A stretch of DNA of 35,071 bases. Origin: Coleofasciculaceae cyanobacterium RL_1_1 (GTDB lineage Bacteria; Cyanobacteriota; Cyanobacteriia; Cyanobacteriales; Geitlerinemataceae). This document shows, in pieces, positions 14,151-35,071 of the stretch; the stretch's first letter is position 1, and each line of letters starts with the position of its first letter. The translations under genes were made by a program, and so were the position numbers. The stretch spans positions 1 through 35,071 of the forward strand of contig JAAUPN010000012.1 of the NCBI GenBank assembly GCA_012033105.1, in the 5' to 3' direction. Below the pieces are notes generated by a model that saw only the letters and a program-made list of their open reading frames with translations, did no database searches and was not told the origin of the DNA.

Positions 14151-14191
14151 GCCGTCGTTGCGCTTGAGCAATCGAAACTAGCCGATCACCT

Positions 14192-14286
14192 TCAGGACTT
14201 ACGCAAACTATTGAAACTCGTAGGGGCGTCATGGCAATGCGCCCACGGTATTACGTGGTTTTAGCCGGTCAGTGCGTAAGTCCTGA
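14192..14286. mobile_element. MITE-like element with 14-bp terminal inverted repeats
   Basis: Perfect 14-bp inverted repeats, TCAGGACTTACGCA (14192-14205) and TGCGTAAGTCCTGA (14273-14286), bound a 95-bp non-coding element between the kinase and the RTX-like gene. The CAGGACTTACGCA end is, from general knowledge, a recurrent motif of cyanobacterial small insertion elements. The flanks (acct and cctt) could hide a 3-bp target duplication, but this is ambiguous. No transposase is present, so it would depend on one elsewhere. It may also fold into a hairpin and influence transcription between the two genes. Confidence 0.65.
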
Positions 14287-14379
14287 CCTTTCCGAGTTCT
14301 TCACTTTTGCAACCTAGAGTAAGGCGTAACAAAACACACGTTCCACGCCGCAACTCACACCCACTCACCGCAAAGTTTC

Positions 14380-27657: not shown

Positions 27658-28470
27658 ATGACCTCAGAAACCCAGGCCGTTCCCCAATCATCTCCCAAGC
27701 CATCGATCTTGCCTCCCTTTGTGGATGTGATCGCCCACCGGGGCTACTCTGCCGGTGCGCCGGAAAATACAATTATTGCCTTTGAACAAGCGATCGAGTT
27801 GGGAGCACGTTCGATCGAGCTTGATATTCAGTGGACGCGGGATAATGTCCCGGTTGTGACGCATGATCCCAGTTTGGGACGCACGATCGCCGGGATCGGC
27901 AGGATTGCCGATTTAACCTGGACAGAACTCCAGGAATGTGATGCGGGGAGTTGGTTTAATGCCGAATTTAGCGATCAGCGGGTTCCGAGCTTTGAGCAGG
28001 TATTGCAGCATGTGCAACGCTTGCCAGGTCAATTATTCCTCGATCTCAAACCCTATTGTCAGTGGTCTGATGAACGGATCGCACTGTTATTGGAGTTGAT
28101 TGATCGCTACCACTGGCGTGATCGCAGTGTGGCTTGCTCGTTCGATCCGGATGTGGCCGATCGCTTTAATGCAGATATTCTTCACCCGATGGCGATCGGC
28201 TACAGCCTCACGAGCGCGGAGAGCTTTGACGAACTCCTGCCACGCGCTACTACCGCCGGTGCTGCGCTGGTCTCTGCCTACGATATGTTGTTGGCCGATC
28301 CGGACTTAATTTGGGAAGCCCATGCCGCTGGGCTTGAAATTGTCGCCTGGACGGTAGATCAACTGGAAGACTTGCAGCGGCTCTCAGACTTTGGCATCGA
28401 TCGCGTGATCACAAATCGCCTGTTACCCAAAACGATAGCGATGACAACCATCGAAACAGCAGAACCTTGA
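27658..28470 (+). CDS. Glycerophosphodiester phosphodiesterase
   Basis: The product is 270 residues from the ATG at 27658. GDPD domain signatures are VIAHRG (H27, R28), APENT, the metal-binding pair ELD (E54, D56) and VVTHDPSLGRT (H69), FLDLKP, and WTVDQLEDLQRLSDFGIDRV near the end. It hydrolyses glycerophosphodiesters to glycerol-3-phosphate and an alcohol, using a divalent metal in a TIM barrel. No signal peptide is present, so it is probably cytoplasmic. It follows dgkA closely, so a lipid-turnover operon is plausible. An upstream in-frame start at 27610 is less likely. Confidence 0.92.
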   Translation: MTSETQAVPQSSPKPSILPPFVDVIAHRGYSAGAPENTIIAFEQAIELGARSIELDIQWTRDNVPVVTHDPSLGRTIAGIGRIADLTWTELQECDAGSWFNAEFSDQRVPSFEQVLQHVQRLPGQLFLDLKPYCQWSDERIALLLELIDRYHWRDRSVACSFDPDVADRFNADILHPMAIGYSLTSAESFDELLPRATTAGAALVSAYDMLLADPDLIWEAHAAGLEIVAWTVDQLEDLQRLSDFGIDRVITNRLLPKTIAMTTIETAEP

Positions 28471-32518: not shown

Positions 32519-33485
32519 ATGACCGTAGCTTCGGAAGGGCTTGCGCTATCTCCCATGACCCCATGGCCCCAGGTATCCGTTATTGTTCCGGCATATAACG
32601 GCGAGCATGATATCCATGAAACGATCGACTGTCTGCTGGCGCAGGACTATCCGAGCGATCGCGTCGAGTTTCTCATCGTCGATAATCACAGCCGCGATCG
32701 AACCCCTGACGTGATCGAACGGTACGCCCGCGATCACGACAACCTGTTTTTACTCCGTGAAGATCAGATCCAAAGCTCCTACGCCGCTCGCAATACTGGC
32801 ATTCGTCACGCCAAATACGATCTGCTCGCCTTCACCGATGCCGATTGTCTCCCCGAACCCCACTGGCTACGCGACCTAATGGCTGCATTTCGCGATCCCG
32901 AGATTGGCCTCGTCGCCGGTCAGATCTGTGCCCTGACGCCGCAAACACTGCTCGAACGCTTCGCCGAACAGAACGAAGTGCTATCGCAAAAGTACACCCT
33001 CGCCCATTCGTTTTGTCCCTACGGTCAAACGGCAAATCTCGCGGTGCGGCGAGCGATTTTCGATCGCGTCGGTCTCTTTCGCCCGTACCTCACCACGGGG
33101 GGCGATGCGGATTTTTGCTGGCGGGCTTTGCGGGAAACGGAAACTCGTATTGAGCTAGCACCAACAGCGATCGTGCGTCACCGCCACCGCTCAACTCTAG
33201 AAGAACTCCGCAAACAGTGGTATCGCTACGGGGTCTCGAATCGCTATTTGCATCAGTTGCATGGTACTGCGTTGGCGCGATCGCGAGGTGCTAGGGGATA
33301 TGGTGCGTCCTTTGTTACGTTGGTTGTTGAGAGAAGTGCCACGCGAGATGGTGCGATCGCTGCGCGGGCAGGGTAGTTGGGTAACATTTTGGTCAACGCC
33401 AATTTTGTTGTATACCGGCTATTGGCGATCGCGTGGACAGCAGGAGGCACAGTTGCCGGATAAGGCTCACGAAATTGCTATGTAA
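32519..33485 (+). CDS. Family 2 glycosyltransferase (frame-disrupted near C-terminus)
   Basis: The GT-A domain starts VSVIVPAYNGEHDIHETIDC, with the nucleotide-binding VEFLIVDNHSRDRTPDVI and the metal-binding DAD in LLAFTDADCLPEPHW. It continues with GLVAGQICAL, LTTGGDADFCWRAL and RKQWYRYGVSNRYLHQLHG. The frame then degenerates after about 33260, ending at 33376. A continuing frame reads EVLGDMVRPLLRWLLREVPR and SLRGQGSWVTFWSTPILL, ending DKAHEIAM at 33485, so one extra base (or four) lies near 33262-33285, within a HIP1-containing stretch. The start may be 32519, 32555 or 32444. It transfers a sugar to an unknown acceptor, plausibly for cell-envelope polysaccharide. Confidence 0.83.
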
Positions 33486-33557
33486 AATTGTCACATCATT
33501 TTGTCGTCACGTAACTATAGCAAAAAACGATTTTCTTAGGACTCATCGAAAAAAGCT

Positions 33558-33617
33558 GAGAGCACTGAGCGGAGTCGTTGGCGTAGCCTTCGCGCAGCGA
33601 ATAGTGCGGTTTTCAAC
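33558..33617 (+). repeat. Dispersed repeat, degenerate copy with internal insertion
   Basis: GAGAGCACTGAGCGGAGTCG (33558-33577) matches the middle of the 40-bp repeat, and GTGCGGTTTTCAA (from 33604) matches its right flank at copy A. Between them lie 26 bases including GCGTAGCCTTCGCGCAGCGA, a motif common in cyanobacterial intergenic repeats. Confidence 0.5.
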
Positions 33618-33738
33618 TTAGACGAGAGTATCCTAATACAATCGGTTTCTGCTATATCGTCACGTAACTTTAAATGTAATCTTATAGTTGGTTCAATCAA
33701 AAACAAAACACATTGACTCTGCTCTGCTTTTTGGCGAA

Positions 33739-33778
33739 CCGCGTTTCGACTTCGCTCAACGCTCTCAAAGTGTTCTGA
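33739..33778 (-). repeat. Dispersed 40-bp repeat, copy B
   Basis: On the minus strand this copy reads TCAGAACACTTTGAGAGCG and ends GTCGAAACGCGG, differing from copy A at 17931-17970 by two bases in 40. It lies about 120 bp upstream of the methyltransferase start. Confidence 0.75.
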
Positions 33779-33895
33779 GAATAATTGAATTGACTCTAAC
33801 TCTGGTTTGATTTTGGAAATTTGTCGCACTGATTCCCGTATTATTCGCTACGCTCATCATCCATTCTTCGCCACTACTGCATTACCGAAAAATTC

Positions 33896-35071
33896 ATGCC
33901 CCGACCGATAGGAATCGATTTATTTGCTGGCGCGGGTGGGATGACCCTCGGATTCGAGCAAGCCGGGTTTGACCTGATCGCAGCGATCGAAGTTGATCCG
34001 ATCCATTGCGCCGTCCATGAGTACAACTTTCCTGAAACAACGGTGTTTTGTCGCAGCGTGGCGGAGATTAGCGGGCAAGAGATTCGCGATCGTTTGGGGA
34101 TTGGCGATCGAGACATCGACGTTATTTTCGGTGGCCCGCCCTGCCAAGGATTTTCGCTAATTGGCAAGCGGGCATTAAATGATGAGCGCAATCAATTGGT
34201 GTTTCATTTTTTGCGCGTCATTGATGAGCTAAAGCCGAAATACTTTGTCATGGAAAATGTCAAAGGTATGGTCACCGGCAAACACAAGCAAGTGATTGAA
34301 GACATTATTCAATCAGTGACCCAAATGGGATATCAGGTCACCCAACCTTATCAAGTTTTAAATGCCTTTCATTACGGTGTCCCCCAGGATCGAGAACGGC
34401 TATTTTTACTCGGCTCCCGTCACGATTGCGACCTTGCACACTATCCAACACCGCAAACCAAGCCCGCAAAAACCAAGCGAAAACTCGCAAAAACCTTCAG
34501 GACTTGCCCCCAACTCCAACCGTAGCTGAGGCGTTATTTGATCTACCGGATGCTGATCAAATTCAGGTTTTATGGGAACAAGATTGGGTTGACATTCAGC
34601 TAGAAGAACCGAGCCGCTATGCGTCAATTTTACGGGGAGAACATACCGATCCCGACGATTATTCCTATCTCCGATCGTGGAATCCCGAACGTATGACATC
34701 CAGCACGCGGACGAAACATACACCCACCTCGATCGCACGCTTCGCCCAAACCATCCCCGGCCAAGTCGAACCGATCAGCCGCTTCCTCAAGCTCGATCCC
34801 GACGGCATTTGCAACACTCTCCGAGCCGGAACCCCCAGCAGTCGCGGTGCATTCACCTCACCCCGCCCGATCCATCCGATCGTCCCGCGCTGCATCACCG
34901 TCCGCGAAGCTGCCCGCCTCCATTCCTATCCCGACTGGTTTCGCTTTCACGTCACCAAATGGCACGGCTGCCGTCAGATTGGCAATTCTGTCCCGCCCTA
35001 TTTGGCGCGGGCTGTCGCTCGCGAAATCCTCAGCGCCTTACAGCATCAACCTGTTAAACCTCGCACCAAGC
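33896..35071 (+). CDS. DNA (cytosine-5) methyltransferase (frame-disrupted; runs off window end)
   Basis: Motif I is IDLFAGAGGMTLGFEQAG. Motif IV, GGPPCQGFSLIGKR, holds the catalytic cysteine (about C83). Motif VI is FVMENVKGM and motif VIII is VPQDRERLFLLG. The target-recognition region follows, then motif IX-X (REAARLHSYPDWF and IGNSVPPYLARAVAREIL) in another frame. Restoring one G near 34500 (CAGGAC to CAGGGAC) joins the two halves as LPPTPTVAEALFDLPDAD. The sequence is open at 35071, so the last residues are missing. There is no restriction enzyme gene beside it in the window. The general look recalls the cyanobacterial CGATCG methyltransferase M.Ssp6803I (slr0214), which acts in the HIP1 octamer, but the target is unproven. 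Confidence 0.87.

Follow-up and report, generated by a model that had tools for sequence, protein, structure and literature searches.

A frame-broken C5-cytosine methyltransferase gene, probably of the CGATCG type, at a contig end of a HIP1-rich cyanobacterial draft genome

The methylase gene at the contig end

The window, i.e. the whole stretch of 35,071 bases that was analysed, is an entire contig (C336), one of 349 in a draft genome that totals 4.20 Mb and is 86.55% complete. Two plus-strand frames at its end encode a C5-cytosine methyltransferase: an ORF of 209 amino acids (33896-34525), and then a second frame (34426-35070) that is open at its 3' end. Both frames match PF00145 in a Pfam profile search, with complementary parts of the profile, and the motif strings are likewise divided, I, IV, VI and VIII being found in the first frame and IX and X in the second (Table 1). 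A C5 methyltransferase with the main motifs and a start at 33896, as given in the original prediction, is thus present. The names obtained from NCBIfam were those of superfamilies only and hence specify no target.

The frame break that had been placed near 34500 was also seen. When the DNA is aligned with the closest relative fetched (locus L001), the window has one base fewer at 34475-34500, where the exact position of the missing base is unplaceable at such divergence. The first ORF is truly coding to about 34475-34500 and the remainder of it is out of frame. Furthermore, the 3' end of the gene is absent, as the contig stops at 35071, upstream of the stop codon.

Table 1. Features of the methylase gene in the window. 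Motif numbers are our own assignments.
Feature	Position	Strand	Presumed identity	Evidence
N-terminal part of C5-cytosine methyltransferase	33896..34525	+		PF00145 profile 4-188, E 3.1e-56; TIGR00675 dcm, E 2.5e-49
DLFAGAGG	33917..33940	+	taken to be C5 motif I, S-adenosylmethionine binding	motif string
GGPPCQGFS	34130..34156	+	taken to be C5 motif IV, with the catalytic Cys	motif string
ENVKGM	34253..34270	+	taken to be C5 motif VI	motif string
QDRERLF	34385..34405	+	taken to be C5 motif VIII	motif string
Frame-break zone, one base fewer than L001	34475..34500	+		DNA alignment with L001; net -1
C-terminal part, second frame: target recognition domain and motifs IX, X	34495..35070	+		PF00145 profile 182-323, E 2.3e-14
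NTLRAGT, most conserved run of the target recognition region	34813..34833	+		alignment, 82 rows
RCITVREAARLHSYPDWF	34888..34941	+	taken to be C5 motif IX	motif string
GCRQIGNSVPPYLARAVA	34966..35019	+	taken to be C5 motif X	motif string

Relatives and family placement

The best of 80 fetched relatives was L001, from Oscillatoriales cyanobacterium PH2015_06S_54_30 (RDYZ01000214.1). Its methylase is a single intact frame of 466 amino acids, whereas the window copy is broken and cut; read through as one protein, the window copy is 84.7% identical to it over 391 residues. Taken separately, the N-terminal ORF has 84% identity with L001 (residues 1-205), and in the C-terminal part 164 of 204 residues agree. 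The DNA upstream is collinear between the two loci from window position 27840 onwards in the DNA alignment. A DUF928 gene and a glycosyltransferase lie upstream of the methylase in L001, and an IctB-type transporter gene lies directly downstream.

ORFs of 415-488 amino acids were found at 79 of the 80 fetched loci. Additionally, 39 genomes including the window's own were searched for the methylase. The best match reached at least 59% identity in 25 of them and 48-54% in 11, and there was none of at least 48% in the remaining 3. In the 35 other genomes whose best match reaches 48% or more, the frame is open for 411-480 amino acids, compared to 230 here.

For the tree and for conservation, the window protein was compared with 79 fetched loci and 2 further rows. 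Locus L007 was omitted on account of its split ORF (232 amino acids); its methylase shares 67% identity with that of the window, and the contig, labelled Candidatus Gracilibacteria, is probably a mis-binned cyanobacterial one. In the tree (84 rows, midpoint-rooted between very long branches) the window protein and L001 are paired with support 100/100 within the family of fetched loci. For the genome's two other C5 methylases, the tree program warns that their placement is uncertain.

A second ortholog in the genome was considered and rejected, since none was seen and the next best match of the genome's own is only 42% identical. Further C5 methylase genes are found on contigs C252, C155, C249 and C37, and the one on C249 is also in two frames.

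The two halves of the methylase are under strong purifying selection to a similar degree. Measured against L001, dN/dS was 0.088/1.00 for the N-terminal half and 0.109/1.30 for the C-terminal half, with dS near saturation.

Restriction genes and the CGATCG target

No restriction partner of the methylase had been visible in the original prediction. This held for the one restriction-enzyme family checked, PDLC03404, which has no match anywhere in this 86.55% complete assembly. The contig ends at the methylase gene. Within these bounds, namely one restriction-enzyme family, an incomplete assembly and a contig end, the methylase looks orphan. Vsr was found in none of the 39 genomes, that of the window included, though the related C5 methylase is common there.

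Restriction-linked relatives do occur. PDLC03404 is present in two of the 39 genomes (G024 and G028), in both cases directly after the methylase (loci L239 and L240), so that the methylase family occurs both alone and as restriction-modification pairs; the grouping of these two cyanobacterial rows in the tree is unsupported (51/93). In Pseudomonas donghuensis (L043) a Vsr gene (PF03852) and a type II restriction-enzyme gene (PADLOC PDLC03404) flank the methylase, an arrangement that we take to be XorII-like. In Stutzerimonas (L078) a PDLC03404 restriction enzyme adjoins it. The L043 methylase is about 60% identical to that of the window over 386 residues, and 69% identical in the target recognition core. 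Neither of its two partner genes, PDLC03404 and Vsr, has a match in the window's genome, which speaks against membership of an XorII-like restriction-modification system. The restriction-enzyme ORFs of L043 and L078, called type II by PADLOC, were given no name by Pfam and NCBIfam, and the methylase neighbour in L057 was given none by Pfam, NCBIfam or PADLOC. A PDB search with the L043 restriction enzyme found nothing.

In the excerpts of Elhai 2015 (PMC4390886) used here, most cyanobacterial CGATCG methylases are described as m5C enzymes orthologous to DmtC, and the m5C DmtC orthologs are placed in one group with XorII. The excerpts of PMC6604393 state that M.Ssp6803I (slr0214) makes m5C at the first cytosine of CGATCG and that it stands outside any restriction-modification system. 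Judging from these excerpts, M.Ssp6803I of Synechocystis PCC 6803 and DmtC of Anabaena PCC 7120 resemble the window gene in being C5 methylases of HIP1-rich cyanobacteria for which no restriction partner was found. They differ in that the window gene shows a frame break in the assembly and a cut end. The presumed target of the window gene is drawn from these papers and from conservation among the sequences compared.

The window protein groups with cyanobacterial orthologs and shares their conserved target recognition region, in a set that has DmtC and M.Ssp6803I themselves outside it. The interval that separates motif VIII from motif IX has 160 positions, of which 39 are conserved in 95% or more of the 82 rows. 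In the target recognition core, identity is 92% with L001 and 66-69% with three proteobacterial rows. Family, orthologs and the conserved recognition region agree with the methylase type that had been proposed, and from these we infer CGATCG as the target. The gene would accordingly be named a resident cyanobacterial C5-cytosine methyltransferase of the DmtC / M.Ssp6803I type, which would most likely methylate CGATCG, the HIP1 core, without a restriction partner.

A target other than CGATCG is unlikely. C5 methylases are very common, with 4849 plasmid and 1344 phage records matching the N-terminal half, and the direct comparison includes no tested enzyme, both of which leave room for a different specificity. 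This is countered by the identity of the recognition core to L001 and to the proteobacterial rows, by the PDLC03404 enzyme that adjoins the methylase in two of these three rows as well as in G024 and G028, and by the abundance of HIP1, which fits CGATCG.

HIP1 abundance

HIP1 (GCGATCGC) had been noted as abundant here, and is so. The window has 41 matches, compared to a mean of 2.04 in 100 shuffles, none of which was as high, and the genome has 4632 sites in 4.20 Mb, compared to 85 for the reversed pattern. The resulting density of 1102 per Mb is normal.

It has been proposed that CGATCG methylation helps to create and maintain HIP1 (excerpts of PMC4390886). Among the 39 genomes, HIP1 density does not cleanly track the presence of the methylase, and the link between the two is loose. 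One genome (G013, 91% complete) has 1399 HIP1 sites per Mb, yet no methylase match of at least 48%. Two others are HIP1-poor (G032 with 104 and G005 with 214 per Mb), yet have the methylase.

Frame breaks across the assembly

Frame breaks were counted with ORFs from two genomes of the same genus, G001 and G002, taking proteins whose matches in the window's genome (G000) jump frame. Sixty other contigs, with 97,617 matched bases, had 22 breaks, and the window, with 18,840, had 8. As controls, G000 ORFs gave 2 in 112,213 on G002 and 1 in 15,203 on G001, and the two relatives compared with each other gave 0 in 11,889 (G002 on G001) and 0 in 11,847 (G001 on G002). The break rate is thus 13 times that of the controls (30 in 116,457 versus 3 in 151,152; conditional binomial p 1.5e-8), or about one break per 3.9 kb of matched coding sequence. 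All three control sites are in genes whose partner is itself broken in this assembly (L145, L143 and L147). A net loss of one base, modulo 3, fits 24 of the 30 breaks, and the identity flanking the breaks stays high, often 70-95%. A smaller first census, now superseded, had found 7 sites in the window (20.2 kb), 2 in other contigs (8.6 kb) and none in relatives (32.0 kb); the window count rose from 7 to 8 with different rules and references.

The window rate exceeds that of the other contigs. Besides the methylase break, counted at 34483, the window sites are 6136, 22530, 25155, 25480, 28662, 32271 and 33288. A few, 28662 and 32271 for example, may reflect natural variation at the ends of genes. 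The one near 33288 breaks the glycosyltransferase directly upstream of the methylase. Three intergenic stretches of the window are dispersed repeats, two (33516-33657 and 33681-33798) with many matches in G001 and G002 and one (14186-14292) with many in G001.

When the reference proteins of ten broken genes were scanned, leucyl-tRNA synthetase (leuS, broken) and the glycyl-tRNA synthetase beta chain (glyS, broken twice) were among those identified above the cut-off. Additionally, rpoC2 changes frame around profile position 250, its two halves overlapping by 4 bases. This overlap resembles that of coupled genes, and the rpoC2 split taken by itself may be natural. A gene of the same genome for a Dam-family adenine methylase (L241:1411-2561; G000 contig C189) is also split between two frames. 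The Synechocystis GATC methylase, a possible ortholog of the split gene, is called essential in the excerpts of PMC6604393.

Error or loss

The break is most readily explained as an error of assembly or sequencing, because similar frame breaks occur throughout the assembly. At the assembly-wide rate a break in a gene of about 1.3 kb is unsurprising, and the error reading is further preferred because normally indispensable genes are broken as well. We therefore favour, with a probability of roughly 0.9, an ordinary, apparently orphan methylase of the DmtC / M.Ssp6803I type, likely acting on CGATCG, whose break is a draft-assembly error. The error would amount to a net loss of one base, the missing end of the gene would be that of the contig, and in the living organism the methylase is most likely intact. 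Of the two outcomes that had been put forward for this gene, loss of HIP1 methylation in the strain did not find support, given about one break per 3.9 kb with indispensable genes included, and an error in an otherwise ordinary core methylase is the better reading on the same grounds.

If the break were real, the strain would have lost its methylase recently and its genomic CGATCG sites would be without 5mC. We regard this as quite unlikely. The break is present in the deposited sequence, mutated copies have been reported from Scytonema hofmannii ('frame shift (or sequencing error)') and Calothrix PCC 7103 (excerpts of PMC4390886), and slr0214 mutants of Synechocystis are viable (excerpts of PMC6604393). 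However, the high break rate of the whole assembly, the similarly strong selection on either side of the break and the lack of a second ortholog in the genome (the next own match being 42%) that could explain a relaxed copy all argue against it. A genome in mass gene decay, as in some symbionts, in which the break would be one of many true pseudogene mutations, would agree with the spread of breaks over many contigs. It was rejected as highly improbable, as leuS, glyS and rpoC2, all normally indispensable, are among the broken genes, HIP1 density is normal and the identity flanking the breaks is high. Least credible is programmed ribosomal frameshifting joining the two frames; A-rich stretches near the break would suit it, but the frame is single and long in L001 and in 35 of the 38 other genomes searched, and many more breaks occur in this assembly. 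This explanation was rejected too.

Conclusion

Were the gene truly and recently inactivated, which we consider very unlikely, the strain would be a natural CGATCG-methylation-minus cyanobacterium still dense in HIP1, and a comparison with a close relative could test the role of 5mC in HIP1 maintenance. With the draft-assembly error as the preferred reading, single broken genes in this assembly should not be read as biology, and the methylase is an ordinary one, from a known family that is resident in cyanobacteria.
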